IMG/VR virus record: IMGVR_UViG_3300017971_000641 | Location: 1-29,621 of that record | Source: a virus | DNA length: 29,621 bases | Reading direction: 5' to 3' (one strand) | In this document: positions 12,057 to 28,225 of the stretch, piece after piece | Layout of the letters: each line of letters starts with the position of its first letter | Position numbering within the stretch: the first letter of the stretch is position 1 | Made by a program: the position numbers and the translations under genes | Notes under the pieces: model-generated | Told to the model about the DNA's origin: nothing | Databases searched by the model: none | The model's input: only the letters and a program-made list of their open reading frames with translations

Positions 12057-12395
12057 ATGAAAAAACTAATGTTAAAAATAACAGGGCCAGGATTTGGTTC
12101 TGATCCTGTTAATGTATATATTAAACTCGACGTGTCAAATCCAATGTGGAATAAAGCTGTAAAAGAAGGCAAAACAATAACGGCCGAGGTACCAGATTCA
12201 GCTTTGTGGCGGGGCAGGGTGTCCGCTGACTATTGGCCTTTTGAATTTACCGAAAAAAAAGGCGACATTCACATTGACACTGTTGCCCTTGCCGAAGCAG
12301 AAATTGCAAAAGAAAACGAAATCGAAAAAGCAAACAAAAAAATTGATGAGAAAAAGGCAAAGGAGACTTTCAAGAATGAAGTTAAAAAGAATTAA
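12057..12395 (+). CDS. Hypothetical capsid-adjacent protein
   Basis: A 112-aa protein directly after the major capsid gene. The first 75 residues are beta-rich with several Trp and Pro residues (VYIKLDVSNPMWNKAV, SALWRGRVSADYWPFEF), suggesting a small folded domain. The last about 35 residues are an Ala/Glu/Lys helix (ALAEAEIAKENEIEKANKKIDEKK), likely coiled coil. AAAGGGAATATT precedes the start. Its end overlaps the next gene by 20 bases. No family is recognised. The position suits a minor capsid or completion component. Confidence 0.6.
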   Translation: MKKLMLKITGPGFGSDPVNVYIKLDVSNPMWNKAVKEGKTITAEVPDSALWRGRVSADYWPFEFTEKKGDIHIDTVALAEAEIAKENEIEKANKKIDEKKAKETFKNEVKKN

Positions 12396-13338
12396 ATATA
12401 TATTATTTGGGCTATTTCTTGCCGCTTCATTTTTGGTCTTAACAGGTCAAACAGCGGACCCAAATATCCCGGCTCATTGGTATGATAAAGTAATTAATTA
12501 TATCAAAGACGGTCAATTCACAATGACCTATAAAACTTTGACAACTCCGACAATAACAACTCCGACCATATCAGGTGGAACAATAACAGGAAATACAGCT
12601 TTTACAGGTTCACCGATTTTTAAAGAACTAAACTTAGGTCAGGGCTATATTGACTCAACTGGCCGCACCATGATAAAAGTTCAAAATAAATCTGGTAGTG
12701 CACTTGCCGAGGGAGATGTATGCGTATGGGATGCTTCCGCAATCACTGTATTTTCGCTTGATCCCGTTGGGGCTACTTTGTCACTGGACGACACTTTGGC
12801 ACACGAAGGTGGATTTTTTGTTTTGTCAATGGATGTCGGCGTGAATGGTACACCGGATGCGGGCGACACTATTACAGTTATTGGAAAAAGTTATGAAGCT
12901 GCCGGGTTGGACACCGTAGGCTATTTGATGCCAGCGGCAAATTCAGAATCGGAAATCAAAGACGGAACAAGTCGAATTAGATGGTATGAAATAGACTCAA
13001 TCACAATGAATACAGATGCTCAAACAGGTGCGGACTCAATTGCAATTTATGCAACACCAGTTATGGGCGTTGCGTTGTCTGGTGGTTCTGTGACAACTTT
13101 TGCGGGTGTTGCTACTGGAGCGATTGCTGATAACGCTTGGGGCTACATTTGCAACAAAGGAGTCACAAAAGTCGTGGTTGACGCTGCGAGCACCGATGCA
13201 GATCCAGGCGTTGCTGTAGATTGTGCCGCAAATGGCGACGGCGTGACAGCAGGCTCATGGACAGCCGGCCAAACTTTTGGGGTGGCATGTGAAATGAGTC
13301 AATCAGATAACACCAAAATATTAGTTGATATAAGGTAG
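12376..13338 (+). CDS. Signal-peptide-bearing decoration-type structural protein
   Basis: A 320-aa protein. ATG 12376 is preferred over an upstream in-frame start at 12241 because AGGAG lies about ten bases before it and the product then opens with a typical signal peptide: MKLKRIKYILFGLFLAASFL followed by VLTGQTADP, with likely cleavage LTG|QTA. After a Thr/Pro-rich linker with repeated TTPTI units comes a beta-rich domain beginning VQNKSGSALAEGDVCVWDAS. This resembles DUF2190-type decoration domains in its GDVV-like strand and its closing strands (TFGVACEMSQSDNTKILVDI). A secreted form of a head protein is odd, since capsids assemble in the cytoplasm. Alternatives are a cell-surface-displayed protein or a head fibre whose hydrophobic N-terminus serves as an anchor. 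Confidence 0.65.
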   Translation: MKLKRIKYILFGLFLAASFLVLTGQTADPNIPAHWYDKVINYIKDGQFTMTYKTLTTPTITTPTISGGTITGNTAFTGSPIFKELNLGQGYIDSTGRTMIKVQNKSGSALAEGDVCVWDASAITVFSLDPVGATLSLDDTLAHEGGFFVLSMDVGVNGTPDAGDTITVIGKSYEAAGLDTVGYLMPAANSESEIKDGTSRIRWYEIDSITMNTDAQTGADSIAIYATPVMGVALSGGSVTTFAGVATGAIADNAWGYICNKGVTKVVVDAASTDADPGVAVDCAANGDGVTAGSWTAGQTFGVACEMSQSDNTKILVDIR

Positions 13339-13342
13339 CATA

Positions 13343-13807
13343 ATGGCCAACATTACAGGTGCACAAGTCAGAAATAGATTAAGAACTTTAACCAGTGTTG
13401 AAGTTTCAGATACTTTATTATCCGATGCGCTTTATTTAGACGCGAGTGATTCATGGATGAATTTAATTCTTGCAAATAATGGGGCGGGCTCTTATTCTGA
13501 CTTAAGTGACGATAAAAAAGCAATGTGTAAAGTCGCTCAATGCGCTTGGGTTTGTTTGCGAATAATTACATCGGCGCCAGTAGACAATGTCAACGCTGGC
13601 CCGATAAAAATAGCAGAAACTAATAAAGCTGAAATCATAAAAGCATTTACAAACGAAATAGAAGAGACGTTGGGGATGTTAGGTTATACTATTAATGGCG
13701 CATTCGTTATGAGTTATGGAAGCGACGACTATGCACCTAACGGCACAGATTCGCGAAATATAAGCTTTACAGACCAAGAAAATGGAGATTTTTCCGTATG
13801 GCCGTAA
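13343..13807 (+). CDS. Head-tail connector (adaptor, gp6/gp15-like)
   Basis: A 154-aa, mostly helical protein at the start of the connector block. It has the usual adaptor pattern: a first helix (AQVRNRLRTLTSVEVSDTLLSDALYLDASDSWMNLIL) with short turns, then a second bundle including KKAMCKVAQCAWVCLRIITS. Adaptors of this kind bind beneath the portal ring after packaging. The order adaptor, stopper, gp10-like, tail terminator seen from 13343 to 15223 is the classic one and supports the assignment. Its end overlaps the next gene by ten bases. Confidence 0.72.
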   Translation: MANITGAQVRNRLRTLTSVEVSDTLLSDALYLDASDSWMNLILANNGAGSYSDLSDDKKAMCKVAQCAWVCLRIITSAPVDNVNAGPIKIAETNKAEIIKAFTNEIEETLGMLGYTINGAFVMSYGSDDYAPNGTDSRNISFTDQENGDFSVWP

Positions 13808-14289
13808 TGCTGAATACAAGATTATTAAACGCTATTATTCGATATGGTAATACGGCTACTTTGGTATATTATACGGGCGACCAGTGTCCTTGTATGATTT
13901 CAAGAGATTCTGGGCGCCCACAATATTCCGCAGAATGGCACGAAAACAATCCAGCTCCCGATAATGAAAATTGTTTAAAAACAGGACTAATAAATAAAAC
14001 AGCATATAATTTAACATGTTTGGGTTTTATTTATCTCGTTGATTTTAAAGAAGATTCAAGAGCAGTCAATAAATATGAATTTAAAGAAATTGGACTGTTT
14101 GAAGATTGTGACCTCGTAGCCATTGGGTTGGTTAATTCATCAACAAACGCATTTGTTGACGTGTCTGGATTAGACAGACAAACAAGTGTTTTAACTTATA
14201 AAAATATTGCATACAATATATACAAAGTTCAAAGCATTTATATTAATGATTATGAAGCACAAATAGCAGGCTTTAAAAGGAAAAATTAA
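13798..14289 (+). CDS. Putative head closure (stopper) protein
   Basis: A 163-aa beta-rich protein between adaptor and gp10-like genes, the slot of the head-closure/stopper protein (SPP1 gp16-like). It has a Cys-containing N-terminal loop (GDQCPCMISRDSGRPQYSAEWH), later another Cys (NENCLKTGLI), and a C-terminal strand-turn-strand run (VLTYKNIAYNIYKVQSIYINDYEAQIAGFKRK), the usual ending of this family. It shares one base with the following ATG (TAATG-type coupling). The family match is by position and general pattern, so confidence is moderate. Confidence 0.6.
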   Translation: MAVMLNTRLLNAIIRYGNTATLVYYTGDQCPCMISRDSGRPQYSAEWHENNPAPDNENCLKTGLINKTAYNLTCLGFIYLVDFKEDSRAVNKYEFKEIGLFEDCDLVAIGLVNSSTNAFVDVSGLDRQTSVLTYKNIAYNIYKVQSIYINDYEAQIAGFKRKN

Positions 14290-14720
14290 TGAGTGATGTT
14301 TATCTTGATGCCACAAAATTTATTAAAAAACTTAAAAAGATCAAATCTGAATTGCCAGTTTTTTTACATGAACAACTTAACGAAAGTAGAGATATTGTTT
14401 TTCGGGAAGTGATGAACAATCTTTCAGGGCCAGCAATTGGTATGAAACCAAGTCCCGGAGCGCCCGGTATTGGCGAAATGCCAGTGCCAAGAAGATCAGG
14501 AAATTTGGCAAGATCACTTAAAAGCACGCCGGCAAATGACTTTAAAGTTTTTATATTTTGTGATGAAGATATAGCGGAAGATTATCCTCAGCATGTTCAT
14601 GATGGTACAAAAAACATTCCGGCGCGTCCTTTTTTAAAAGAGCCTTTTGTATTAAACGAAAAGAAAATCATTAACAAGATTAATTCACAAGTAAATATAT
14701 TTTTAAGGCATAAAACTTGA
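14289..14720 (+). CDS. HK97 gp10-like tail completion protein
   Basis: A 143-aa protein with the gp10 pattern: an N-terminal helix (KFIKKLKKIKSELPVFLHEQLNESRDIVFREVM), a glycine-proline loop (SPGAPGIGEMPVPRRSGNLARSLK) and the family's characteristic end GTKNIPARPFLKEPFVLNEKKI. Proteins of this family complete the head-tail interface in siphoviruses. The start overlaps the previous stop. The stop overlaps a TTG start of the next gene as TTGA. Confidence 0.82.
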   Translation: MSDVYLDATKFIKKLKKIKSELPVFLHEQLNESRDIVFREVMNNLSGPAIGMKPSPGAPGIGEMPVPRRSGNLARSLKSTPANDFKVFIFCDEDIAEDYPQHVHDGTKNIPARPFLKEPFVLNEKKIINKINSQVNIFLRHKT

Positions 14721-15223
14721 GTGCTATATTAAGGGACAATTATTTAATTGACGATGTTCAAAGTGTGTTTCTTGCTTTATTTAATCAATACGCAAGCGAT
14801 ACAACGCCTTTTACAAGGTGGGATATTGTCAGAGGATTCCCCAATTCATCTATTTTTGATGAAAAAGGGACAGCATTAATTTATATTACAAAGCCTTTGA
14901 TCGTAGAAATTCAAAAAGTTCAAGGGCAAAATAAACCAAATTATGTCCTTGATTTAAGTTTTGGCATTTGGGTGGACTCAAAAGAAGGCGGCGAAGAAGA
15001 GCAGGCGATTATGATTTCACAATTAACCGCAAAATTTGCCACACCCAACACTATATATAAGAAAACTTTCAACGTTACACTTGGAGCGGTTACATCTTCC
15101 AATAAAACGTTGTTAAATTGCGGGATTAAAATATTGGGAATCACTGGTTCGAGGACTATTGAAACAACGAATCCCTATAATGAATTTCGTTCTATAATCG
15201 ATATAAGAATTAAAACATTTTAA
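14717..15223 (+). CDS. Tail terminator protein (gpU-like), TTG start
   Basis: A 168-aa protein in the tail-terminator slot, between gp10-like protein and tail tube. It has an N-terminal helix (DDVQSVFLALFNQYASDTTPF) and then alternating strands such as TALIYITKPLIVEIQKVQ and NYVLDLSFGIWVDSK, a helix (EEEQAIMISQLTAKF) and closing strands, matching the alpha/beta fold of gpU-like ring proteins that cap the finished tail. TTG at 14717 is chosen: it forms a TTGA overlap with the upstream stop, AAGG lies about nine bases before it, and no ATG precedes the first helix. Confidence 0.68.
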   Translation: MSAILRDNYLIDDVQSVFLALFNQYASDTTPFTRWDIVRGFPNSSIFDEKGTALIYITKPLIVEIQKVQGQNKPNYVLDLSFGIWVDSKEGGEEEQAIMISQLTAKFATPNTIYKKTFNVTLGAVTSSNKTLLNCGIKILGITGSRTIETTNPYNEFRSIIDIRIKTF

Positions 15224-15235
15224 GAGGAAAATAAA

Positions 15236-16024
15236 ATGGCCGCAGTAACAGATCAGTTAGGCGCATTAAACTCCGATTATGAAGTTGATGGCTTATATAC
15301 CTTGCCCCGCTTTTTTAGACATGCGGCGGCGGTAGCAACAGACATACAACCGATAAATATTGCTGGAGTTCAAGAAGTCACTGCCGAAGGTTATTCTTGG
15401 GGAATTGAACGAGACAGCTTTCAGCAGGGCGGCGGCGCCGTTCCGAGAACTACAAAAAGGAATCCGAAATATAGTTTAAATATTAGCATAAAAGGTGGAT
15501 ATGTAGGGACATTTTTAACAAATATGTTAGGCCAAAGTTGGTCAACATATTTTGCCGTTCCCTTGCGATTCCCTATTACTGCATTAATAACCTTGGAATT
15601 GGTTGTTAGAAAAGCAGACAACGAAAGTCACTTATATTCTAAATGTTATCAAGATTTGATATTACAGGAGTTTAATGTTGGCTCACCAATGGAAGACGAA
15701 ATCGTAACGATTCCGTTTATGTCATATCACGACCCATTTATATTGAATTCTGGGTATCACTTAGTTTATGATAAATTTAGTGGTGATGGTTCCACAACCG
15801 ATTTTTCTTTGACGGGCACGCCAGTCGCACTCGTGGACACTAATGAATTGGCAAAGGAAGACTGGGAACTTGATGACATGGTTTTCGTCAAGACCAAACT
15901 TTCAACTGATGACGAAGGAACAAGGCAGCGTACGGGCATTTCTCAATCAAGTGGAACTTTAACTTATACGACAGCACCGGCATCAGGTTCTGAAGTTGAG
16001 GCGTTGTGGGCAGAAGCAAATTAA
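15236..16024 (+). CDS. Major tail tube protein
   Basis: A 262-aa protein with a strong ribosome site (AAGAGGAAAATAAA). It lies between the tail terminator and the tail chaperones, where the tube subunit is expected. The beta-rich body includes INIAGVQEVTAEGYSWGIERD, NISIKGGYVGTFLTNML and LILQEFNVGSPMEDEIVTIPFMSYHDPFIL, consistent with the tube beta-sandwich. The last about 80 residues, from LVYDKFSGDGSTTDFSLTG to the end, look like a separate small beta domain that could project from the tail surface. It should polymerise around the tape measure into the tail tube. Confidence 0.82.
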   Translation: MAAVTDQLGALNSDYEVDGLYTLPRFFRHAAAVATDIQPINIAGVQEVTAEGYSWGIERDSFQQGGGAVPRTTKRNPKYSLNISIKGGYVGTFLTNMLGQSWSTYFAVPLRFPITALITLELVVRKADNESHLYSKCYQDLILQEFNVGSPMEDEIVTIPFMSYHDPFILNSGYHLVYDKFSGDGSTTDFSLTGTPVALVDTNELAKEDWELDDMVFVKTKLSTDDEGTRQRTGISQSSGTLTYTTAPASGSEVEALWAEAN

Positions 16025-16037
16025 CCGAGGTTAATAT

Positions 16038-16301
16038 ATGACAGCACAAATTTATAGAACAACAGATTTATATCGGGCAACAGCAATTATAATCAAAACA
16101 GGAAAACACCCAGACCGATTTGAGAAAATTGTGTTTTCTGAAAATTATAAACCTAAAATTGAATTAATATGGGAAAATCTGGACATAGATATAATTAACA
16201 AGTTGGAACGCAGAGAGCTGATTGTGGAGCCAATACAGTTCGGTTCAATTCACGCTCCATTAAAAGGTAAAATTTTAGAAATGGCAAAAGAGGGAATATA
16301 A
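16038..16301 (+). CDS. Small tail-region protein, 87 aa
   Basis: Lies between the tube gene and the frameshifted chaperone pair, two bases before the chaperone start. It is a mixed alpha/beta small protein with RATAIIIKTGKHPDRFEKIVFSE and a central IELIWENLDIDIINKLERRELIVEP helix region. CCGAGG upstream is the ribosome site. No family is recognised. Its position suits a tail assembly factor or small tube-associated protein. Confidence 0.5.
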   Translation: MTAQIYRTTDLYRATAIIIKTGKHPDRFEKIVFSENYKPKIELIWENLDIDIINKLERRELIVEPIQFGSIHAPLKGKILEMAKEGI

Positions 16302-16302
16302 T

Positions 16303-16821
16303 ATGACTGATATTAATATTTTACAAAAACTTAAAAATGCAGATAAATATAGAGTTGAAACTTTAACTTTTGACATTCCGCTTGATGGGAATGACGTTAT
16401 CACAGTAATGCTTAAAATGCCAGATTTATATGAAATAATGGCCGAAACGGATGCAATAAAGCAGGAAGTCATAGCTGAGGAAACGGCTCGTGGAAAGCAT
16501 CAGATTCCTTTTTCTGCCGAGCAGTGGAAAGCAGAAACAAAGGATATGACTCCAGCGCAAAGAAAAAACATTGAGAAAGATAGGCCGCTAAATATGGCAG
16601 AATATAAAGCATATAAAACAGTTCAATATAAATCAATCTTAGAAATTATACCAAGATATCTGCGAAACAATAGCGGGAAATTGATTTTTCAAACAAATGA
16701 ACAGCGAGAGGAATTCAAGGAGCTTGTTTCTGCAAATCCAGACCTTTTTGTGTTACTGGCTAATAAATATGTTGAATTGTTCGGAAAATTAAATGATAAA
16801 CAAAAACAACTAAAAAACTAA
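16303..16821 (+). CDS. Tail assembly chaperone, short form (gpG-like)
   Basis: A 172-aa protein immediately upstream of the tape measure, ending exactly at a frameshift signal. The N-terminal part has strands and a hydrophobic helix (YRVETLTFDIPLDGNDVITVMLKMPDLYEIMAETDAI). The middle is charged and helical (WKAETKDMTPAQRKNIEKDR). The end is LFVLLANKYVELFGKLNDKQ then KQLKN. gpG-type proteins coat the tape measure during tail assembly and are made in excess over the gpGT fusion. The gene ends with two successive zero-frame stops (TAATAA). Assignment rests on position plus the frameshift signal. Confidence 0.8.
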   Translation: MTDINILQKLKNADKYRVETLTFDIPLDGNDVITVMLKMPDLYEIMAETDAIKQEVIAEETARGKHQIPFSAEQWKAETKDMTPAQRKNIEKDRPLNMAEYKAYKTVQYKSILEIIPRYLRNNSGKLIFQTNEQREEFKELVSANPDLFVLLANKYVELFGKLNDKQKQLKN

Positions 16822-16868
16822 TAAGGCAAGGAGAACCGCCCGAATTTATGTTAAGGGTTCTTCTTGCC
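16812..16868 (+). promoter_or_regulatory. -1 programmed ribosomal frameshift signal
   Basis: The heptamer A AAA AAC (16812-16818) is in the correct phase of the chaperone frame (CTA AAA AAC). It is followed by a 6-base spacer TAATAA holding two zero-frame stops, then a stem pairing GGCAAGGAGAACC (16825-16837) with GGTTCTTCTTGCC (16856-16868). The stem has 13 continuous pairs including one G-U, with an 18-base loop. A 4-base loop-to-downstream match (GCCC 16838-16841, GGGC 16890-16893) could form a weak pseudoknot. The -1 frame is open from 16800 through 17105. All three parts of a canonical -1 signal are present at normal spacing. Confidence 0.9.
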
Positions 16869-17105
16869 CGTATATTTCCCGGATACAGAGGGCCGTTTTG
16901 TAAACATTTAATTAAGGATTTGAAAAATGGTTATAGGCGACAATTTTTAATTGCGAGCTTAGAGATCGACACAGAAACCAAAACATTAATGAGGATATTT
17001 GATGTTTTCCTACAAATGTTTCAAAAATCTAAGGGGGTTAAGCGGCCCACAAAATTATTCCAAGAAAAAAAGAAAACAGATCACTTTTATTGGGACGGTG
17101 AATAA
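16848..17105 (+). CDS. Tail chaperone frameshift extension (T part of gpGT-like fusion)
   Basis: Best read as the -1 extension of the upstream chaperone, not as a free gene. After slippage at 16812-16818 the frame continues LIRQGEPPEF and then MLRVLLARIFPGYRG, giving a fusion of about 267 aa (172 + 95). An independent start at ATG 16848 is unlikely: the nearest GGAG is 14 bases away and locked in the frameshift stem, and the ATG lies in the loop. The extension is basic and helical (FCKHLIKDLKNGYRRQF), as expected for the part that contacts tape measure or tube. Its last base overlaps the tape-measure ATG. The fusion should be made as a minor product. Confidence 0.78.
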   Translation: MLRVLLARIFPGYRGPFCKHLIKDLKNGYRRQFLIASLEIDTETKTLMRIFDVFLQMFQKSKGVKRPTKLFQEKKKTDHFYWDGE

Positions 17106-20100
17106 TGGCCGTTAATATCCCCGGTGGAGCTACTGCCAACATTGTTGGCGTTATTGGTTTAAAAGGGTTAAGCTCTTTCAATCAAGGCTTAGATCAAGCA
17201 GGTTCAAAAGCCACAAAGATTGGTTCAGTACTAAAAGCTGGCTTAGCTGTTGGAATTGCAGCTGCGGGAGCAGCGTTTGGGCACGCTGTTAAAGAAGCAG
17301 CGGGATTTGAAACAAAAATGTTGAGTATTGGGACACTTTTGGGCAAGGGCAGTGAAGCACAAAAGGCCATTGTTGAAATGGAATCTGGAATAAAAGCTCT
17401 CGCGAAAACAATGCCAACTGGAGCCGGCGAGTTGGCCGACGCAATGTATAATATCGTATCGGCAACAGTGCCGGCCGCCGACGCTATGAAAGTTTTAGAA
17501 ATATCCGCAAAAACAGCGACCGCAGGATTAAGCGACTCCAAAAGTTCATTTGATCTTATTTCTGCGGCAATAAAAGGATATGGAAAAGATTGGTCTGAGG
17601 CTGGAAAAGTTTCGGATATTTTCTTTAATGTTGTTAAACAGGGTGTTACTACAATTCCAGAACTGGCAAGTTCACTACAAAAAGTGATTCCAGTTGCGGC
17701 TAATCTGGGAATATCGCTCGAAAACCTTGGGGGGTTAACTTCCACGTTAACCGGTGTAACAGGCAACACAGCAGAAGTAACAACACAATTAACAAGTGTT
17801 ATGTCAGGATTAATGAAGCCAACTGGAGAGCTAGAAAAAGCTTTTGAGAGGCTTGGTGTTAAAAGCGGGAAGCAATTAATAAAAACTTCTGGCGGCTTAG
17901 TTGGCGCATTAAATAAACTAAAAAAATACACTGGCGATTATGATATTGCAATAACTAAACTTTTAGGAAGGAAAGAATCTCAACTTGCATATATGGCGTT
18001 AACTGGCGCTCAGGCTGACGATTATGTTAAAAAAGTTCAATCAATGTATGAAGCGACTGGCAGCATGCAAGACGCTTTTGATATACAAATGTCCGGTTTT
18101 ACGAATCAAATGAAATCTTTTAAAAATTCCATTAATGTTACAAGCATTGAAATAGGACAAAAATTAATGCCCTATTTAAAAGCTTTTGCTGGATGGTTGA
18201 ATAAAAATAGCGGGACGATAAGTAATGTAATAAAAGAATTTTTTGATTGGGGAATGATAGTTGGAAGCGTTTTAATTGATGCTTTTCTTTTATTGTGGGA
18301 ATCTTTAAAGCCTACAGTCGATATAATCGCCAATGATTTAATAGATGCTGTTTCGGAACTCGTTGACTGGATTGATCAAAATTCAACAAGCATATCTACG
18401 ACAATTTCATGGCTTAGTAAATTTAACACATTACTCAATACATTTGTTATTGATGGAGTGAAAACTCTTGGAAAAGTTATAGCCGTAGTAGTTGAGAATG
18501 TTGAAAAAATGGTGGGGTGGTTTAAAGATACTGCATCAGAAACTTTTAAAGACAATGTTGACAAACTTGGGAAATCGTTTGGAACTTCTAACAATGAAGG
18601 GTTGCGATCTGCTGTGAATGCAGTAAACGACTCGTTATCTGGAAATGAAGGGTTAGAAGGTATAGCGGGTAAAGTTAAAAAAGCAATTGGCGACGATAAT
18701 TCTGGCCTTGTAAAAGCAAATAAAGATGCCGCGGATAAAACTAAAACATTAAAAGAAAAAGCCGCAGATTTAATGGAGAAGTTAAAAGGAATTAAAAATG
18801 ATGCTTTGGGTGCAAAAGATTCGCTTGGCAGTTCTGGTTCTGGACTTGCAAAGGCTTTAAGCGACAACTCAGATCAAGCAGTAAATATGAAAAATGCGGC
18901 AAATGACCTAAATAACACATTGTCACTTGATAACGGACTTGGTAAAGTCGTGACAGATTTACAAGGCGAAGCACGCATTCCCGGACTTGGTGAAGCGTTA
19001 GAAGGTGCGAAATCAAGTTCAGACGATTTAAAAGATTCTGTTTCAAATCTCACCGGAAGCGAATCGCTTGGAAAAGTTGATAGCGTTTCACAAGAAGCGA
19101 AATCTGGCCTTGAAAAGATTTCAGACGGCGCCGACGCTGGCACGATTTCAGTTAACGACATGTATAATATTTTGGGTGATATGATTAATCAAATGCCCGG
19201 GCTGTCTACACAAGCAAAAACAATCGGAACAACATTGTTAGGCATGGTAACGTCTGGGTTTAATCCCGCCACCGTAGCAACTGGCGCATTGACTCTCGGT
19301 ATGAGTTTGTTTAATCAAAAAGCTGAAAAAGTGCCACTTACAATTGATGATGTTAGAGATTCACTTGAGAAACAAGGTATTGCCATAAGAGATGCAGAGC
19401 AAGCGATTACAGATATTGGCGACGAATTGACAGATAAATTAGCTCCTGCATTTGAAAATTTATTGGAAAAAATTCTTGCTATTCAAGAACACGGTTATAT
19501 GTTTCACGAGCAAGACTTGGAAAATTATAAATCCGAACTTGAAGACCTTACCAAAATTGTTGCGGCTTTAGAATGGCCTCTCAGTTTTATGCAAGGATTT
19601 GATGAGACTCACGATTTACTTTCAACCATAAATAATAAAACCGAAGAGTTTTTAAATAACTTTACTGGCCCGGCAGCTGACTTTGCTAAAGCTGGCTTTG
19701 GTGAAGGAATCAGGAAATTTTTAAAAGATGCCAAATTACAGATATTGTCACTCAAAGAAGGTTCCGAAAGGTGGAAAGATTTAAATGATGAAATTATAAG
19801 AGCAGAAGGGTTGCTTGCGGTTCTTGAAGGCAAATATGAAAGTCTTGAAGATTACATGAAAGATCAGGGATATACTTTAGAAGATTTAACAGAAAAATGG
19901 GAAGATTACTGGGATATGTTAGGGGGACAAAAAAGCCCGTTTAATGAATTTATTTCCGATGTTGATGACATGAAAAAAGCGTTGGGAAATTTTGAATTTT
20001 TCGGCGGCGATTTGGCTGAACTTGAAAAGAATTTCCAACCAATGATTCAAGGAATGTTAGATTATCTTAACACGCTTGATCCAAATTCAGAGGCTTATAA

Positions 20101-21553
20101 ACAAGCAAAAGCAGCAATTCAAGAACTTATTACGAAAATGCAAGAGCTGAAAGATGACGCTCAGGGTGCAGCAGGCGAAAATGATGATGAAGGCGTGAAG
20201 GCACTTCAAAATCAATTAAAAATTCTTAAGCAAAATTTGGAAAACGCACAAACAGCGTATACAAACCTTGAAACAGAGCTTGAGAATAAATTAATGATAC
20301 AAGCAGAAATACAAGCTGAGCTTGACAAATTGGGGGATGAACGAGATCAACTTATAAATCAATTAAATGAAATGGAGGCAGAACATTTAAAAATTCAAGC
20401 AGAAATAAAGCTTGAGATGGATGAACTTACCGGCAAGCAAGGCGACTTGCAAGATTTAAAAGATTTTTTGATGACGGGGTGGACAAAAGGAGAAGCAGGT
20501 CTCACAGATTATTTGCAAGCGGTAGCAGATTTATTGGGCACCGATATTGAAAGCGTTATGAAAACAGGCGGAATGGATTTTTATGCGCTTGATGAATTGT
20601 TGGAATCTTTAACAGGTAAAACTCAAACGTTTTCTTTTGAATGGGAGTCAATGATAAAGAAAATGACAGGTGACTTTTCACAGTTTGGAAAAGATATGGA
20701 CACGGCAACTCAGCTGTTGCAAGACATTCTTTTCTTTAACATCGACCTTGATTCCACTGATGCTGATGAAGCTATTAATGCTTTAATTTTTAAAATGGAA
20801 GATTATTTAGCAACACTTGATCCAGATTCAGATGCTTACAAAGAATTTAAAAATCAACTTGATGACTTGAAACAAAAGTTTTTAGATGCGGGCGGTGCTC
20901 TTGATTTTGATAAAGCATTAAAATTCAAAGGTAAAGAAGCGGAAGATGGCATTGGTGAAATCGACGGAATGTTGAAAAAACTTCAGGACAAATATGATCA
21001 AAATGAATTAAAATTTATTGCAAATACTAAAGACATACATAACAAGTTAAAACTCATTGAAATGGAGATTAATAAACTCCAAGATAAAAAAATCAAAATT
21101 GATGCAGATATCAAAGAAGCACAAGAAAAATTAAAAGCTTTAGCAAAGTTAATTGCAAAGTTAAAAGGCAACATTGGCGATATTGGCGGAACTTTAGGTA
21201 AGGTCGGTAGTGGTGTTGGGAAAATGGCTGCATATCATACCGGGGCGGTTGTCACAGCTCACACTGGCCTACTGACCAATGAAGAAGTAATGATAAAAGC
21301 TTTAAAAAATGAAGTTATATTACCAAGGCGAGCGACTGATAAATTTGGCCGTCAAGCAATGGGAAATTTTATTCAAACACTTAATCCAAATGATCTTAAA
21401 TCACCCGAAGAGCAACAAACAACAAACGTTAACATTGTAGTACATGAAGCAAATCCAGACACGTGGGTTGAAATCGTAGATAGCAAGATTTTTCCATTAA
21501 TCCAAGAAAAACAAAGACACTATCAACCAACAGAGGACAAATATAAAAAATAA
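17105..21553 (+). CDS. Tail tape measure protein
   Basis: At 1482 aa, by far the largest gene, placed right after the chaperones. The N-terminal third carries a TMP core-like domain: EAAGFETKMLSIGTLLGKG, LAKTMPTGAGELADAMYNIVSA and GLTSTLTGVTGNTAEVTTQLTS. Hydrophobic helices occur near residues 38-60 and around 385-400 (IVGSVLIDAFLLLWESL). The middle is low-complexity helix and coiled coil. Residues 946 onward contain a duplicated module. The C-terminus has AAYHTGAVVTAHTGLLTNEEVMI and LKNEVILPRRATDKFG, common at tape-measure ends. It sets tail length (about 220 nm at 0.15 nm per residue) and probably helps DNA cross the cell envelope. No peptidase or lysozyme motif was recognised in it. Confidence 0.94.
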   Translation: MAVNIPGGATANIVGVIGLKGLSSFNQGLDQAGSKATKIGSVLKAGLAVGIAAAGAAFGHAVKEAAGFETKMLSIGTLLGKGSEAQKAIVEMESGIKALAKTMPTGAGELADAMYNIVSATVPAADAMKVLEISAKTATAGLSDSKSSFDLISAAIKGYGKDWSEAGKVSDIFFNVVKQGVTTIPELASSLQKVIPVAANLGISLENLGGLTSTLTGVTGNTAEVTTQLTSVMSGLMKPTGELEKAFERLGVKSGKQLIKTSGGLVGALNKLKKYTGDYDIAITKLLGRKESQLAYMALTGAQADDYVKKVQSMYEATGSMQDAFDIQMSGFTNQMKSFKNSINVTSIEIGQKLMPYLKAFAGWLNKNSGTISNVIKEFFDWGMIVGSVLIDAFLLLWESLKPTVDIIANDLIDAVSELVDWIDQNSTSISTTISWLSKFNTLLNTFVIDGVKTLGKVIAVVVENVEKMVGWFKDTASETFKDNVDKLGKSFGTSNNEGLRSAVNAVNDSLSGNEGLEGIAGKVKKAIGDDNSGLVKANKDAADKTKTLKEKAADLMEKLKGIKNDALGAKDSLGSSGSGLAKALSDNSDQAVNMKNAANDLNNTLSLDNGLGKVVTDLQGEARIPGLGEALEGAKSSSDDLKDSVSNLTGSESLGKVDSVSQEAKSGLEKISDGADAGTISVNDMYNILGDMINQMPGLSTQAKTIGTTLLGMVTSGFNPATVATGALTLGMSLFNQKAEKVPLTIDDVRDSLEKQGIAIRDAEQAITDIGDELTDKLAPAFENLLEKILAIQEHGYMFHEQDLENYKSELEDLTKIVAALEWPLSFMQGFDETHDLLSTINNKTEEFLNNFTGPAADFAKAGFGEGIRKFLKDAKLQILSLKEGSERWKDLNDEIIRAEGLLAVLEGKYESLEDYMKDQGYTLEDLTEKWEDYWDMLGGQKSPFNEFISDVDDMKKALGNFEFFGGDLAELEKNFQPMIQGMLDYLNTLDPNSEAYKQAKAAIQELITKMQELKDDAQGAAGENDDEGVKALQNQLKILKQNLENAQTAYTNLETELENKLMIQAEIQAELDKLGDERDQLINQLNEMEAEHLKIQAEIKLEMDELTGKQGDLQDLKDFLMTGWTKGEAGLTDYLQAVADLLGTDIESVMKTGGMDFYALDELLESLTGKTQTFSFEWESMIKKMTGDFSQFGKDMDTATQLLQDILFFNIDLDSTDADEAINALIFKMEDYLATLDPDSDAYKEFKNQLDDLKQKFLDAGGALDFDKALKFKGKEAEDGIGEIDGMLKKLQDKYDQNELKFIANTKDIHNKLKLIEMEINKLQDKKIKIDADIKEAQEKLKALAKLIAKLKGNIGDIGGTLGKVGSGVGKMAAYHTGAVVTAHTGLLTNEEVMIKALKNEVILPRRATDKFGRQAMGNFIQTLNPNDLKSPEEQQTTNVNIVVHEANPDTWVEIVDSKIFPLIQEKQRHYQPTEDKYKK
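19940..21150 (+). repeat. Duplicated module inside the tape measure
   Basis: Two related stretches occur at residues about 946-1130 and 1191-1375. Each has an FxxF start, a phenylalanine-rich turn (FEFFGGDL; ILFFNIDL) and a near-identical helix-capping segment: DYLNTLDPNSEAYKQ at 986 and DYLATLDPDSDAYKE at 1233. A long coiled coil rich in Leu, Lys and Gln follows each. The spacing within each copy agrees to within two residues. This looks like an internal duplication that lengthened the tape measure. Confidence 0.7.
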
Positions 21554-21936: not shown

Positions 21937-24900
21937 ATGCCAGCTTATACAGACTTAACAACATCTTTGCAATCTTTAGTTTCGGCTACTGCAGGGACTA
22001 AAATAAAAATGGATTTTGTCCTTGATCCAGAAAACCGCAACATTGTTTTTTCAGATCAATACGGGCCTATTAAAATTACTGGAATTAAAAATGAAATAAA
22101 TCTGGACGTTAATTATGAACGACGTCCGGTGCTTGGGAAAATCAGGGTAGAGCTTTTGGACCCTGAAGGAACTTTAAATCCAAACAATGAAAATTCATAT
22201 TTTTCTAATGCGTGGAGTGTGTTATATAAAAATGCAGAAACGGGCGATACTTCAATTCAAGTTTATGATTATGACACCGCAAATTTTACTTTAAATAGTT
22301 GGATAACAATAAAAGGTAAAGAACATTCTTACCCTTTTGCGTTTAATGAACTACTTGTAAAAATCACAAGCATAACTGATAATGGTTCATATTTAACGCT
22401 TGGGATTAATGAAACAATAGATTATTTACACGAGTTTAAAATAGGCTCTATGGTTTTTGTTAATTCATTTAAAGAAGAATGTTTGGTTAGGATGTGGCTT
22501 GGTGACGATACAACACCAATAACTTTATTTCGTGGCCGGATGACAAAAGAGCCAGCCGCAGGCAAAGACTCTATAATCGTAGATTTATCAGAAACCAAGA
22601 AAGAAGCTCTTGATTCTTTACTGGTGGGTGCAGATACAGACAATACCAATAAATTAATGTTTTTTAATTCGTCTGGCACTTTAACAGACTCAACACAAAT
22701 AACAAGCGCATCAGGAACTTTTGACAGAACAAAAGCATATCCCTTGGATGAATGTAGGATTGGAAAGTGGATTGCTACTTTTACAAGCGCCAATGAATTT
22801 ACGCTTGACGGCCCCGGAACTGAAGGTCTTTCATGTAACATTAACTATGGACTAAGGAGCGCAACGACTGTAAGCAATTATCAATATCAAATGGTCGTAG
22901 ATGGTAATTATTTATATTATATCGATGGAGACAACGGCTATTTAAGAATATATAATATAAGCGACCCAGAGTCAATATCATTAACGGGAAGCGTGGCGTT
23001 AAGCGGGACGGTCGCCGGAAATATTACAGGAATCTCAAAATCCGGGAATTATATATTTGTAAATTATTATACGATATTTCAAAGTAAAGCATGGATTGAA
23101 TCAATTGATGTTTCAACTCCGTCAAGTCCGTCAATTTCTGATACTATTACAACGGATTCAGAGTTGCCGTCTGGCATGACTGATGGCAAGAGTGCCATTT
23201 CAGGGAATTATTTATATATTACAGATTTAAATGATTCTATACATGTTATAGATATTTCAACACCAGCAGCGATGGTTTATGATAATTCATATGGCGGAGC
23301 TGGCTCCCCAAACTATACGGATTATATCGGACATATTGAAATTTCTGGCAATTATTTATATACAATATCGTTGGTAGACAAATATTTAACTGTCTGGGAT
23401 ATTTCAACACCAACAAGTTTGTCTCTTGCTGGCACACTTGATTTATCAAGTTACGGCACAATTGATTTATTTTTTTATTTATCTGGAAATTATATATATT
23501 TTTGTTCAAATACAGATAACGAAAGTACTTTGCGAGTTATCGATATCACGACTCCCACTTCACCAAGTATTGTTTCGAATGCGACTTTTTCTGGTCGTGA
23601 AGCTCCATATTATATATATGATTTAAAGGCAGCGTATCGCTCAGGCAATTATTTATATTGTCTTTTCAGAGAGGCCATTGTTTTAATTAATGCGACAACT
23701 TTAACAAGCATGAGTTTAGTAGAATCAATTCCAACAAATTCTTTGTTAGGGTTCAGCAGTAACTCTTATGGCTGGGCTGTTTCGGGCTCTGATTTTTTTA
23801 TTAGTTCAGATGATAAATTAATCACTTATTCTTTAGACCCAACATATATCAACAAACAAGGTTCTAATTACTTTAATATTGGCACTCAAGCCTGGGGGGG
23901 AACTTATGCTGCGGGAGATACAGTAGAGTTTTACACCGGTATTACTTTTAATGATAAAAATCCTATTCAAGCGGTTTATGACATTATTAATAATTATACC
24001 AACATTCCCTTAAAATTGTTGGCTGCATCTGCTTATTTTGGCACTAAGCAGATTGGAACACTATATAGAGAATTAGAAAATGGCGACACTTCAATTTTGG
24101 TTAAAGTTAACACTCCAGAACTTATAAAGACAGGAGAAACTTTAACAATAGATTCAACGGACTTTTCTATTACATCTGGAAATTCAGATACTACAAAATA
24201 CCCGCCGTATATAACATTAACTATTTCAGCGCATTCTGGCTCAACGATTGAAGAGGGAACTGCTGTTTATTGGAAAACTGGCGGCTCGGCCGATACTGAT
24301 TTTAATTTTGAAGAGCAACACGAATACGCAAACATTCAAAATATAAAATTGACACTCCATACAGAAATGACAGTCCTTGAAGCTCTTGAAGCAGTAATGA
24401 GACATGTGGACGGCTTTTTGTTTCCGGACAATTGGGGAAAAGAGAATATATATTTATTTAAAGAAAACAATGATACACCTATAGAAATAACCGGAACAAC
24501 CAACTTAATAATGCCAGATCCAACTATTGAAAATTTACCAATGCGCAACGATTTTGTTTATAAATATGGATTCGATTTTTATAATGATCAATATTATTAT
24601 TCAAAAACATATCAAGGCCATGACGGAGTCAATCGGGGATATTGGAGAACTTTACAAAAAACGAAAGCAGAAATTTATTTACCGGGCTTTTATGAAGAAT
24701 CAAAGATTGATGCTGTTAGTTCGGTAAAAATAAGATTATGGCAGTTTGGTGTTCAAGTGATTGAATTCAATACATCACTTGAGGGTATTGTTCTTAAAAT
24801 TGGTGACAAAATAAATATAACAAGCACTAATCCAAGCTTAACGTCTGAATCGTTTATTATTATAGGTCGTGAATTTAGATATTATAAAAAATTTGAAATG

Positions 24901-24945
24901 ACATTTTGGGCATATAATTATAACAAAGTCTGGGCAGAGGGATGA
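21937..24945 (+). CDS. Tail hub / tip protein with inserted beta-propeller
   Basis: A 1002-aa protein built in three parts. Residues 1-310 are a beta-rich tail-tip part with KMDFVLDPENRNIVFSDQYG, EINLDVNYERRPVLGKIRVEL and LFRGRMTKEPAAGKDSIIVDLSE, the pattern of hub proteins that wrap the tip. Residues 319-640 are seven SGNYLY/VIDISTP repeats, an LVIVD-like beta-propeller. Residues 650-1002 resume the hub (NPIQAVYDIINNYTNIPLKLL, MTVLEALEAVMRHVDGFLFPDNWGKENIYLF, KIGDKINITSTN), resembling the later domains of gp27/Tal-like proteins. The propeller interrupts what otherwise reads as one hub protein and is a natural candidate for receptor or glycan contact. The stop overlaps the next start (ATGA). 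Hub function is inferred from position and architecture. Confidence 0.72.
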   Translation: MPAYTDLTTSLQSLVSATAGTKIKMDFVLDPENRNIVFSDQYGPIKITGIKNEINLDVNYERRPVLGKIRVELLDPEGTLNPNNENSYFSNAWSVLYKNAETGDTSIQVYDYDTANFTLNSWITIKGKEHSYPFAFNELLVKITSITDNGSYLTLGINETIDYLHEFKIGSMVFVNSFKEECLVRMWLGDDTTPITLFRGRMTKEPAAGKDSIIVDLSETKKEALDSLLVGADTDNTNKLMFFNSSGTLTDSTQITSASGTFDRTKAYPLDECRIGKWIATFTSANEFTLDGPGTEGLSCNINYGLRSATTVSNYQYQMVVDGNYLYYIDGDNGYLRIYNISDPESISLTGSVALSGTVAGNITGISKSGNYIFVNYYTIFQSKAWIESIDVSTPSSPSISDTITTDSELPSGMTDGKSAISGNYLYITDLNDSIHVIDISTPAAMVYDNSYGGAGSPNYTDYIGHIEISGNYLYTISLVDKYLTVWDISTPTSLSLAGTLDLSSYGTIDLFFYLSGNYIYFCSNTDNESTLRVIDITTPTSPSIVSNATFSGREAPYYIYDLKAAYRSGNYLYCLFREAIVLINATTLTSMSLVESIPTNSLLGFSSNSYGWAVSGSDFFISSDDKLITYSLDPTYINKQGSNYFNIGTQAWGGTYAAGDTVEFYTGITFNDKNPIQAVYDIINNYTNIPLKLLAASAYFGTKQIGTLYRELENGDTSILVKVNTPELIKTGETLTIDSTDFSITSGNSDTTKYPPYITLTISAHSGSTIEEGTAVYWKTGGSADTDFNFEEQHEYANIQNIKLTLHTEMTVLEALEAVMRHVDGFLFPDNWGKENIYLFKENNDTPIEITGTTNLIMPDPTIENLPMRNDFVYKYGFDFYNDQYYYSKTYQGHDGVNRGYWRTLQKTKAEIYLPGFYEESKIDAVSSVKIRLWQFGVQVIEFNTSLEGIVLKIGDKINITSTNPSLTSESFIIIGREFRYYKKFEMTFWAYNYNKVWAEG
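22891..23856 (+). repeat. Seven LVIVD-like propeller repeats within the hub gene
   Basis: Seven degenerate repeats of about 40-48 residues, each led by a GNYLY-type strand and closed by a VIDISTP-type strand: VDGNYLYYID...IYNISDP, SGNYIFVNY...SIDVSTP, SGNYLYITD...VIDISTP, SGNYLYTIS...VWDISTP, SGNYIYFCS...VIDITTP, SGNYLYCLF...INATT and SGSDFFISS...YSLDP. Seven blades make a complete circular propeller. The DNA repeats have diverged, so this is an old protein-level repeat and not a recent expansion. Confidence 0.8.
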
Positions 24946-25382
24946 GAAACACGGTATTAAGGGTTGGATATTTATCTGGTGGCGTAGTTACAAACATTGA
25001 TTTCACAGATCACGAAGTAGCAGAGGTCAATATTCAGACGACACAAAACTATGAAATAAAATTTTTGCAAAACAGAAAACCACTTATGTATTTAACGTCT
25101 GACGAATATTTGCAAATCACTGCAAATATTTACATTGAAAATAATGTAACCATTGACAGACTTGAGGAATTGCAAGGACTTAATGACGCCTTTTTGTTAT
25201 ATTACGATTTTTTGAACAATCCCGGAACTGCAATTGCGGCAAGAGTCGACCCAGAAATTTCATCTATTTATTCAATGGGATACGAAGCTGGTGGACATAC
25301 AATAAGACTAAAATTTTATGAAACAAATTATCCGGCAGGTTTTCTTGCTATCGCTTTTAATGAAAATAATGTTGGGAATTAA
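24942..25382 (+). CDS. Tail-tip protein, 146 aa
   Basis: Starts at ATG 24942 overlapping the hub stop (ATGA). The product is beta-rich: MRNTVLRVGYLSGGVVTNIDF, NYEIKFLQNRKPLMYLTSDEYLQI and a late HTIRLKFYETNYPAGFLAIAF strand pair. Its size and fold outline resemble the 21553-21936 product, although no clear sequence identity was seen. It is probably a structural part of the tail tip around the hub. Not recognised as a named family. Confidence 0.58.
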   Translation: MRNTVLRVGYLSGGVVTNIDFTDHEVAEVNIQTTQNYEIKFLQNRKPLMYLTSDEYLQITANIYIENNVTIDRLEELQGLNDAFLLYYDFLNNPGTAIAARVDPEISSIYSMGYEAGGHTIRLKFYETNYPAGFLAIAFNENNVGN

Positions 25383-25384
25383 TT

Positions 25385-25648
25385 ATGGCAACATGGGCAA
25401 AAGAAAATGTAATTTTCAGGTTGGTTGTTTGGAGTACTGGAGTAGCAGATACTACGACACATACCGTAGTATTGCAACCAACAGACCAAACATATCCGAC
25501 CGGTTCTATTTCTTGCACGCATGCAGGGAACGGGTATTATCGGCCAGATTCTGATTTGAATGATACAAAACATTATTATATATATGTTGATACTGTAAAA
25601 AAATCAAAACTAATTTCAATCGAATCAGAGCCAGCAATTTTAACTTGA
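25385..25648 (+). CDS. Small beta-sandwich-like tail protein, 87 aa
   Basis: Begins two bases after the previous stop. The product looks like a single small beta domain: NVIFRLVVWSTGVADTTTH, PTGSISCTHAGNGYYRPDSDL and HYYIYVDTVKKSKLISIE, a pattern like the short Ig-like or BppU-like N-terminal domains of fibre attachment proteins. It sits between tail-tip genes and the first fibre-like gene, so an adaptor for the fibre is plausible. No signal peptide is present, unlike the three genes that follow. Function is inferred from place only. Confidence 0.5.
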   Translation: MATWAKENVIFRLVVWSTGVADTTTHTVVLQPTDQTYPTGSISCTHAGNGYYRPDSDLNDTKHYYIYVDTVKKSKLISIESEPAILT

Positions 25649-25658
25649 GGAATTTAAA

Positions 25659-26954
25659 ATGAAAAAAATAATAACAATATGGATTCTGCTTGTAATAAGT
25701 ATATTTTATTTATATGCCCAACAGGTAATACAATACCGGTCGCAAAGATTTGATTTATCAATTTTAGTAGACGATACAACTTTTGTGGCAGACTCCACGA
25801 CTTATTTATTTAAGGACGGCTCAAATAATTTAAAATTTGTTGATGCAGTAGTAGGCGCAAAAACACTAACAGAACTATCAACGACAACACTTGATTCCGA
25901 TTTTGTAAGTTTCACGTCAGACACCTTTTATATAAATGATACAAACACAAAGGTAACAGAGGACGGCTCAAATAATTTAATTTTTGTTGATGCTGTTACG
26001 GGAACTAAGACACTCGCAGAACTATCAACGACAACACTTGATTCCGATTTTGTTTCTTTTACAAGTGATACTTTTTATATAAACGACACTAACACAAAGG
26101 TAACAGAAGACGGCTCAAATAATTTAATTTTTGTTGATGCTGTTACAGGAACTAAGACTTTGGCAGAGCTGACAGCGACAACATCACTTGACTCCGATTT
26201 TGTAAGTTTTACAAGCGACACATTTTATATAAATGATACTAATACCAAAATCACTGAAGACGGTTCAAACAATTTAATTTTTGTTGACGCTGTGACAGGA
26301 ACTAAGACACTCGCAGAACTATCCGCGGGTGGTAGTGCAGATAGTTCTTTTAAAAAAATAACAGCTGATACAGTGGGAGCAATTGATGACACAACAGTAA
26401 CTTTTATAAATCATATAGCATTAACAGACGATAAAAATATTATATTGCAAGACAGTTCTACGGTCTGGCAGGTATTAACGTGTAATTTTCCGTATGGATG
26501 GTCAACTGGTCCAGATTGGGCGACAAGTTACGGTGGGTGGCTTTTTGCAAGCTCAGGAACAGAACAAGTATTTTTTAATTTTAGGCTTCCTGAAACTTGG
26601 AAAGAAGGCTCTACTATTTATCCAATGATTGGGTGGCAAGCCGCCGTCACAAGTACAGGTGACGCCTATTGGAGATTTGCTTACCGTTGGGTGGACATAG
26701 ATTCAACAGAAGAAGGGACTTTAACAAATTTAGATATTTTAACGGCAGGGACAGGGACAGCATTTGTTCACCAAGAAGCTTTATTTGCCGGTATTTCTGG
26801 AACAGGCAAACATGTCGGAAGCAACATTAGTGGAATATTGGCAAGACTCGGAAGTGAAGGAGACGACGATCTAGCTGGAGATGCGCTGTTGAAAACTATT
26901 AATATAATTATCGAATGCGACAGATATGCGGCATCTGGAGCAAGAGAAAAATAA
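25659..26954 (+). CDS. Fibre-like protein with signal peptide and tandem repeats
   Basis: A 431-aa protein starting behind TGAGGAATTTAAA. Residues 1-20 are a clear Sec signal peptide (MKKIITIWILLVISIFYLYA) with Q directly after the predicted cleavage. Then follow one degenerate and three near-identical 49-50-residue repeats, each with LDSDFVSFTSDTFYINDTNT and DGSNNLIFVDAVTGTKTLAE, probably forming a fibrous beta shaft. After residue about 222 the repeats stop and a longer unique region begins (NFPYGWSTGPDWATSYGGWL, FFNFRLPETWKEGSTIYPMIGWQ). It is Trp/aromatic-rich and looks like a jelly-roll head or carbohydrate-binding domain. The place after the tail tip suggests a tail fibre, but the signal peptide suggests export. 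Both readings are open. Confidence 0.65.
   Translation: MKKIITIWILLVISIFYLYAQQVIQYRSQRFDLSILVDDTTFVADSTTYLFKDGSNNLKFVDAVVGAKTLTELSTTTLDSDFVSFTSDTFYINDTNTKVTEDGSNNLIFVDAVTGTKTLAELSTTTLDSDFVSFTSDTFYINDTNTKVTEDGSNNLIFVDAVTGTKTLAELTATTSLDSDFVSFTSDTFYINDTNTKITEDGSNNLIFVDAVTGTKTLAELSAGGSADSSFKKITADTVGAIDDTTVTFINHIALTDDKNIILQDSSTVWQVLTCNFPYGWSTGPDWATSYGGWLFASSGTEQVFFNFRLPETWKEGSTIYPMIGWQAAVTSTGDAYWRFAYRWVDIDSTEEGTLTNLDILTAGTGTAFVHQEALFAGISGTGKHVGSNISGILARLGSEGDDDLAGDALLKTINIIIECDRYAASGAREK
25881..26324 (+). repeat. Three 147-150-bp tandem coding repeats
   Basis: Units start at 25881, 26028 and 26175; the first two are 147 bp and the last 150 bp, with one extra Ser codon. The encoded residues are nearly identical, but the DNA differs at many third positions (for example TCAAATAAT against TCAAACAAT), showing selection on the protein. 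A more degenerate unit precedes them from about 25770. Such arrays can expand or contract by recombination and change shaft length. Confidence 0.85.
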
Positions 26955-26971
26955 TTTTTCCGGAGAATAGC

Positions 26972-27559
26972 ATGAAAAATTCACTATTAATTTTTTTATT
27001 TCTAACAATATTGGGAATGTTTATTCTTGGTCAATTGGCGACAGATACAAGCGGAAACAGAGTTTTCTTAAAAGCAAATCCACAGACCGGCGCACTTATA
27101 ACAATGGAATATCACAACCACGAATGGATAGTTGGAAAACGCTATTATCATTCAAGCATAAACAGAGTTTCAGCGAACGACACTTTGGTTTTAGGAATCA
27201 CAACGCCAGATAATAATGATATAATTCATTTGTCATGGAATATTAATGGAACAAAACAAATAATCGGAAAAATATTTGAAAATGCGAGTTTTGAACAACA
27301 AGCTTGCATTCCGATGAAAAATTTAAATTTTAATTATCTTGATCAGAGTAATACAAAAATATGTAATTTAACTAATTATAAAATAGGTGATGAGATTGGC
27401 GGCGAATTAAGTGGAGGCTTAACGTCGCCGGGAAATATAAAAACTGATGAGGGATTGATTTTAAAAAACAATGAAAAATATATTTTAATTATTTATTCGC
27501 CTGTTTTAAATGATATTTCTGTAACATTAAAATGGTCAGAACATAGGCCAATACATTAA
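26972..27559 (+). CDS. Signal-peptide beta-rich protein, paralogue of 27617-28225
   Basis: A 195-aa protein. ATG 26972 is chosen over an earlier in-frame start at 26915 because CGGAG lies just before it, and because the product then opens with MKNSLLIFLFLTILGMFILG, a signal peptide with predicted cleavage ILG|QLA. The mature part shares its order of motifs with the next gene: GNRVFLKANPQTGALITMEYHNHEW, then YYHSS, SANDTLVLGITTPDN, and ILKNNEKYILIIYS near the end. Such a beta-sandwich occurs in many phage virion proteins, but usually without a signal peptide. Surface or virion role unknown. Confidence 0.62.
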   Translation: MKNSLLIFLFLTILGMFILGQLATDTSGNRVFLKANPQTGALITMEYHNHEWIVGKRYYHSSINRVSANDTLVLGITTPDNNDIIHLSWNINGTKQIIGKIFENASFEQQACIPMKNLNFNYLDQSNTKICNLTNYKIGDEIGGELSGGLTSPGNIKTDEGLILKNNEKYILIIYSPVLNDISVTLKWSEHRPIH

Positions 27560-27616
27560 CTACATAATAGTCTACTAATAGTTGACTGATATCTATAAAT
27601 TTAAACTGAGGACTTT

Positions 27617-28225
27617 ATGAAAAAAATAATATTATTTTTGCTTTTAAGCTTTATTATTTCTTTTGCTCAAACGGCGCATAATGGTAATGGTGAAAGAGTT
27701 TATCTTAAAGTTGACAACTCTACACACGCTTTAAATATGATTGACTATGAACATCACGAAATACACTCAGGGAGCCACTATTTTATTGCAACATCTGACA
27801 CAATGGCATCAGGAGACACTCTTTTTTTTGAGGTGGTTGTGCCAGATACAACAAGAGAAGCCCATTTTTTATTTACTTATACAAGTTCAGGATTATTAAA
27901 AGCAAATGTTAGAGAAGGTACAACTATTACTGGCGGCGACACATTAACAACTTATAATTCAAACCGCAACAGCAGTAAATCATCCATGCTCACAATTGTT
28001 GGGGGTGGGCAAGCGGCTTGCAATCTTGACTCAGCGGGAACAGCTTTATTATCTTTAATTCATGGCTCCTCAGACAATAAGAATCCCTTTGGTGGTTCTG
28101 GTGGAAGAGGTTCAGAAATAATTTTAAAAAACAACACAAGTTATGTATTTGAGTTTATAAGTGGAGCAGATAATAATTATTTTATGGGCGAAGCAGAATG
28201 GTACGAACATATTCCAAAGGATTGA
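27617..28225 (+). CDS. Signal-peptide beta-rich protein, paralogue of 26972-27559
   Basis: A 202-aa protein behind CTGAGGACTTT. MKKIILFLLLSFIISFA followed by QTAHN is a Sec signal peptide with Gln at the new N-terminus. The mature part GERVYLKVDNSTHALNMIDY, EHHEIHSGSHYFIATSD, GDTLFFEVVVPDT, ILKNNTSYVFEFISGADNNY and WYEHIPKD aligns with the preceding gene over its full length. I recognise the YEHHEIHSG ... ILKNNTSY ... WYEH pattern as a widespread phage virion protein type, often near capsid or tail genes. A Gly-rich loop (NPFGGSGGRGSE) is unique to this copy. The pair may differ in target. The 57-base gap before it holds no other feature. Confidence 0.65.
   Translation: MKKIILFLLLSFIISFAQTAHNGNGERVYLKVDNSTHALNMIDYEHHEIHSGSHYFIATSDTMASGDTLFFEVVVPDTTREAHFLFTYTSSGLLKANVREGTTITGGDTLTTYNSNRNSSKSSMLTIVGGGQAACNLDSAGTALLSLIHGSSDNKNPFGGSGGRGSEIILKNNTSYVFEFISGADNNYFMGEAEWYEHIPKD

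Follow-up and report, generated by a model that had tools for sequence, protein, structure and literature searches.

Predicted Sec leaders with glutamine at the cleavage site on four proteins from the structural block of an uncultured siphovirus-like phage

Results

Four leader-bearing genes

The window analyzed here is the whole of IMG/VR virus record IMGVR_UViG_3300017971_000641 (29,621 bases, 38 genes scored), which by its gene content reads as siphovirus-like. Its head-tail set comprises genes for a large terminase, a portal, head morphogenesis, the capsid, and the tape measure, besides genes of connector type, and a DUF5675 gene lies at the end of the window. This report concerns four of its genes, P0001 to P0004 (Table 1), whose predicted products begin with what appear to be general secretory (Sec) signal peptides having glutamine (Gln) directly after the predicted cut. 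The four open reading frames (ORFs), at 12376, 25659, 26972, and 27617, are all present, start with ATG, and have a Shine-Dalgarno-like site upstream. P0001 follows the major capsid protein/g19, overlapping g19 by 20 nt, and precedes the connector genes.

Leaders were sought with our own rule-based Sec predictor, which requires a positive n-region, an uncharged hydrophobic core, and small residues at −3 and −1; no residue at +1 is rewarded, the only effect of that position being a penalty for Pro. The predictor is a substitute for SignalP, and its thresholds were hand-set with the four leaders in view. It flagged 4/38 window genes, exactly these four and 0/34 others, with Gln directly after the predicted cut in 4/4. 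An earlier sequence-only reading of this DNA had claimed Sec leaders with Gln at +1 in these products and had called for a signal-peptide prediction from their starts; that prediction, blind to the +1 residue, bears the claim out. All four leaders have a positive n-region and a hydrophobic core, A or G at −1, a small or aliphatic residue at −3 (L, L, I, and S), and Gln at +1, and the LTG and ILG motifs of P0001 and P0003 are weaker than AXA, which is a caveat on those two cut sites. When residues 13-45 were shuffled, Gln fell at +1 in 4%, 13%, 7%, and 4% of predicted cases; the product, ~1.5e-5, upholds the earlier judgment that chance is an unlikely source, and together with the leaders themselves it points to a non-chance feature and a Gln-rule host.

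Among control sets, 42/2480 ORFs of the fetched loci were flagged, as was 1/23 in LIMEzero, that one with a lipobox. The structural (head-tail) region of lambda gave 1/22, namely Lom, which is an outer-membrane protein, truly exported, and not known as a virion component. None of the four window leaders carries a lipobox, so by that test the proteins are not lipoproteins. Export through the type IX secretion system (T9SS) was also tested and is unsupported, as no NCBIfam or Pfam match to a T9SS C-terminal domain was found in P0001-P0004; with neither lipobox nor such a domain, nothing points to a fixed role in the outer membrane, though one is possible. By the architecture of their leaders, the four proteins are predicted Gln-rule substrates of Sec and signal peptidase I (SPI), which gives good support to their export.

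Table 1. Predicted leaders, the genes that carry them, and neighboring genes of the window
Feature	Position	Strand	Description
P0001 signal peptide	12376..12447	+	24 residues, MKLKRIKYILFGLFLAASFLVLTG, cut LTG/QTA; rule-based predictor
P0002 signal peptide	25659..25718	+	20 residues, MKKIITIWILLVISIFYLYA, cut LYA/QQV; rule-based predictor
P0003 signal peptide	26972..27031	+	20 residues, MKNSLLIFLFLTILGMFILG, cut ILG/QLA; rule-based predictor
P0004 signal peptide	27617..27667	+	17 residues, MKKIILFLLLSFIISFA, cut SFA/QTA; rule-based predictor
P0001	12376..13338	+	320 aa; Sec leader and protein of undefined fold; Shine-Dalgarno AAGGAG
P0002	25659..26954	+	431 aa; Sec leader, 49-aa (147-nt) fibre-stalk type repeats, C-terminal domain
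P0003	26972..27559	+	195 aa; Sec leader and divergent copy of the P0004 domain
P0004	27617..28225	+	202 aa; Sec leader and YEHHEIHxG...WYEH beta domain, phrog_5335
Major capsid protein (context)	10932..12041	+	phrog_3922, E 2.6e-48
Tape measure protein (context)	17105..21553	+	phrog_991, E 5e-53
Small protein, holin-like position (context)	28227..28628	+	C-terminal membrane helix, from translation; precedes DUF5675 gene
DUF5675 protein, probable lysis gene (context)	28637..29512	+	PF18925, E 2.6e-14

Leaders on virion proteins of Cellulophaga phages

The strongest evidence came from three phages isolated on Cellulophaga baltica, phi10:1, phi18:3, and phi39:1 (KC821618, KC821620, and KC821626), whose GenBank records cite identification of certain proteins by tandem mass spectrometry (MS/MS). 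One leader criterion was applied to every such protein, and 9/38 carry a Gln-rule leader, the other 29 being leaderless. The nine are gp085-087 of phi18:3 (3/12), gp091-094 of phi10:1 (4/12), and gp25 and the pectate lyase-like gp26 of phi39:1 (2/14); in all of them Gln directly follows A, G, or S. Three of these sites were read by eye: the automatic cut falls two residues earlier in phi18:3 gp085 and two later in phi39:1 gp26, while the full predictor did not pick up phi39:1 gp25. A further candidate, phi39:1 gp13, encoded after the capsid gene, was rejected on testing.

The sequences are fibre-like, and the leader genes of phi10:1 and phi39:1 are the last structural genes of their block, as are P0002-P0004; in phi10:1, four consecutive genes occupy the same place just before the lysis-type genes. 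The leader blocks are nearly identical among phi10:1, phi18:3, phi19:3, and phi46:3. No leaders were found on the tested structural proteins of the crAss-like phage phi14:2 or of phi38:1 and phiST, and the feature is thus not universal among Cellulophaga phages. No sequence similarity was detectable between P0001-P0004 and the leader-bearing Cellulophaga proteins, so the link between them is one of leader type and gene position only.

The P0004 domain with and without a leader

P0004 matches the profile of phrog_5335, a phage family of unknown function, at E 6.9e-8; P0003, a paralogue of P0004 (26% identity, E 3.6e-11), joins the family only through it. A terminase scan followed by a family-alignment scan yielded 74 relatives, or 69 after near-duplicates were removed, and 64/69 have no leader and begin in varied ways. 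Of the five that do, two have Gln at or near the site: the relative in the independent phage L087, 52% identical, is cut TFA/QNTD, and that in L142 reads NAKA/QAQ by eye, the predictor having cut at LNA/KAQ. The other three have canonical small-residue sites followed by other residues (ALA/VPI in L108, ASA/VYP in L122, and AWA/RSP in L099), which suggests from sequence that export of the domain is not confined to Gln-rule hosts. The host of L099 apparently does not follow the rule, and that contig has two adjoining leader proteins of this kind (L099:3313-3957 and 3959-4561) directly before a 623-aa gene. One leaderless member, in L089, lies between connector-like and tail-like genes, as read from translations, a placement that supports a virion role for P0004-type domains. 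The domain thus occurs in plain and Sec-routed forms, and because most relatives are leaderless and one stands among connector and tail genes, the leader is read as an addition to a phage domain.

The predicted structure of P0004 (predicted local distance difference test, pLDDT, 75) has a beta domain. Its matches in the PDB were weak, with TM-scores of about 0.25 and mostly to viral jelly-roll capsids, and were set aside; those in BFVD were good, all to uncharacterized phage proteins such as LIMEzero F4N9W0. A Pfam GTP1_OBG match was discarded as being below cut-off and covering only a short Gly-rich stretch. The model of P0001 (pLDDT 35) was too poor for use. In P0002, positions 25815-26323 hold 3.4 copies of the 147-base (49-aa) unit, 82% matching, an array that suggests recent stalk lengthening. 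When viral_contigs was scanned with single sequences (P0001, P0002, P0004, and the capsid protein), no relatives were returned. The description of all four products as structural-type, made in the earlier reading, draws on gene position and on relatives, and none of the latter turned up for P0001 or P0002.

Leader proteins near other capsid genes

The position of P0001 recurs in L087, where two adjacent leader proteins (FA/QNTD) are encoded shortly after the capsid gene and before the connector genes. A small Gln-rule leader protein is encoded directly 3' of the capsid gene in L016, L037-L039, and OP947161, and another lies near the contig start of L142. Scanning with the small proteins encoded after the capsid gene picked up only the leader pattern, at two loci. 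The capsid-position proteins of L037 (17809-19206), L039, and L040 themselves have a strongly hydrophobic N-terminal segment, KWVFGLMAVLLIAVVFACINT, which is unusual for a major capsid protein. The leader protein of OP947161 (L162:8001-8414) follows a structural gene, and Shine-Dalgarno sites were seen in 0/18 tested genes of that phage; it is titled a Rhodobacteraceae phage, and a Bacteroidota host fits better.

Host of the window phage

Shine-Dalgarno sites precede 25/32 window genes, against 12.6% of other ATGs, and 8/11 genes in L087. The same yardstick gives 2/25, 3/21, 2/22, and 0/17 (0-14%) in Cellulophaga phages, and Bacteroidetes mostly lack such sites, Ignavibacteria being among the classes that have them (PMC10783764). 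A host in Bacteroidia or Flavobacteriia is thus unlikely. Bacteroidetes follow the Gln rule generally, and the share reaches 77% in Ignavibacterium album but is below 9% in most Chlorobi (PMC5837995). Taken together, these patterns make the most likely host a lineage outside Bacteroidia, such as Ignavibacteria, that combines the Gln rule with Shine-Dalgarno sites. The sequence-only reading was right that the leaders point to a Gln-rule host, but since the rule does not extend across the Fibrobacterota-Chlorobiota-Bacteroidota group, a host outside that group is the wrong refuter. A scan of a genome collection with the P0004 family gave a single match, L161 (JAIPIC010000016.1), on a contig of a Woesearchaeota metagenome-assembled genome; this is probably a misbinned phage contig.

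Other features of the window

No tRNA genes were found in the window. The interval from the head morphogenesis gene to the gene at 9090 contains a methyltransferase-like gene (7254-7739) and a glycosyltransferase-like gene (7896-8816), both judged by translation only. At the end of the record (29503-29621) an 18-base repeat, AAATGAATAGGTATTCAG, is present in 6.6 exact copies; it is either genuine, marking the genome end, or an artefact of assembly.

Discussion

A proposed assembly in two compartments

We propose, at what we consider an even chance of being right, that the products of the four genes are accessory virion proteins, made as Sec precursors, exported, cut before Gln, and joined to the particle at lysis. 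The proposal builds on the leaders with their Gln at +1, on the reappearance of such leaders in unrelated phages, and on the Cellulophaga proteins of like leader type that carry MS/MS notes. P0002-P0004 would be of adhesin or fibre type, and P0001 a surface protein of the head module. Judging from their leaders, all four would be made as Sec/SPI precursors and exported by the host translocon; host SPI would remove the leader before Gln, and host glutaminyl cyclase would probably convert the exposed Gln to pyroglutamate. Folding of the exported proteins would then take place either in the periplasm or on the cell surface. As to route and timing, we infer docking on the particle once the inner membrane opens at lysis. 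All four may be present in the virion of the window phage. A wider form of the proposal holds that making accessory fibres and surface proteins extracytoplasmically is routine for tailed phages of Gln-rule bacteria, with Sec export, cleavage, a pyroglutamate cap, and docking only at lysis; it would amount to a two-compartment pathway of tailed-phage assembly. We put it forward more tentatively, as somewhat less probable than an even bet.

Several points weigh against assembly by this route. No relatives of P0001 or P0002 could be detected; the MS/MS notes are silent on leader cleavage in virions, and the presence they record is compatible with exported proteins co-purifying with membrane debris; and we found no earlier case in which a tailed phage gathers virion proteins from the periplasm.

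In the main rival reading the exported proteins act at the cell surface, masking receptors, blocking superinfection, or keeping progeny off debris, and co-purify with virions. The export signals of the four proteins suit this reading equally, an exported P0004 domain could compete for the ligand of its leaderless counterparts in the virion-type proteins of other phages, and the Gln-rule genes of Porphyromonas phages have been interpreted as host-surface modifiers (PMC10367356). We nevertheless regard surface action as unlikely, because leader proteins of three Cellulophaga phages carry structural MS/MS notes, the window proteins have neither lipobox nor T9SS C-terminal domain to hold them on the outer membrane, and their genes belong to the late structural block, whose timing is late for an exclusion function. 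Of the functions that the sequence-only reading had listed, late attachment to virions thus gains most, the Cellulophaga leader proteins being annotated as virion proteins identified by MS/MS; superinfection exclusion and receptor masking are without direct evidence.

It is less probable still that the leaders are not export signals at all but membrane tethers or assembly signals of cytoplasmic virion proteins, or are removed by a phage protease. Cutting by the prohead protease has been proposed for signal peptides predicted on capsid proteins (PMC10367356), and the hydrophobic N-termini at the capsid position in L037, L039, and L040 fit such a role. Gln at +1 is, however, typical of host SPI substrates, and a use peculiar to the phage would not preserve it across 4/4, 2/2, and 9/9 proteins; moreover, the Gln-less leaders of the P0004 family in L099, L108, and L122 stop at canonical small-residue sites. 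Functionless leaders, whether remnants of recombined host genes for secreted proteins or chance hydrophobic N-termini, are very improbable: the near-identical blocks in phi10:1, phi18:3, phi19:3, and phi46:3 do indicate that N-termini move as modules, but leaders of differing sequence retain all three regions and Gln, and the shuffling result argues against chance in the window.

Relation to known systems

Gln-rule leaders in phage genes are already known. Phages of Porphyromonas gingivalis (proposed Nixviridae) have Gln-rule signal peptides on five function-unknown genes, which were seen as potential host-surface modifiers (PMC10367356); there, too, predicted SPI cleavage exposes Gln, which was interpreted as an adaptation to host secretion. 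Unlike those genes, the window genes are part of the head/tail block, two of them are members of a structural-type phage family, and they have counterparts with MS/MS virion notes. The Gln-rule SPI substrates of Bacteroidetes (PMC5837995, PMC10653852) share the leader architecture and Gln at +1, but the window proteins are phage-encoded and, from Shine-Dalgarno use, their host is probably not in Bacteroidia. The Cellulophaga phages likewise differ from the window phage in having C. baltica as host and in making little use of Shine-Dalgarno sites. P0004 belongs to phrog_5335 but differs from most of its relatives in having a leader. Lom of lambda and other exported phage morons resemble the window genes in being phage-encoded, having a Sec leader, and adjoining tail genes, although Lom, as an outer-membrane protein, differs from the virion role proposed here. 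No paper on Gln-rule leaders of tailed-phage virion proteins was found among the open-access papers searched; the original Cellulophaga genome paper, which was not covered, may have noted them.

The textbook view is that tailed-phage particles are wholly cytoplasmic products. Three Cellulophaga phages have Gln-rule leaders on virion proteins noted by MS/MS, and several uncultured phages have them within their structural blocks, which raises the prospect that receptor-binding parts may mature via the host secretion machinery. If true, host signal peptidase and glutaminyl cyclase would be needed for attachment, and the secreted-protein-like starts of fibre genes in some Bacteroidota phages would be accounted for. 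For uncultured phages, Gln-rule leaders combined with Shine-Dalgarno use provide a clue to the host.
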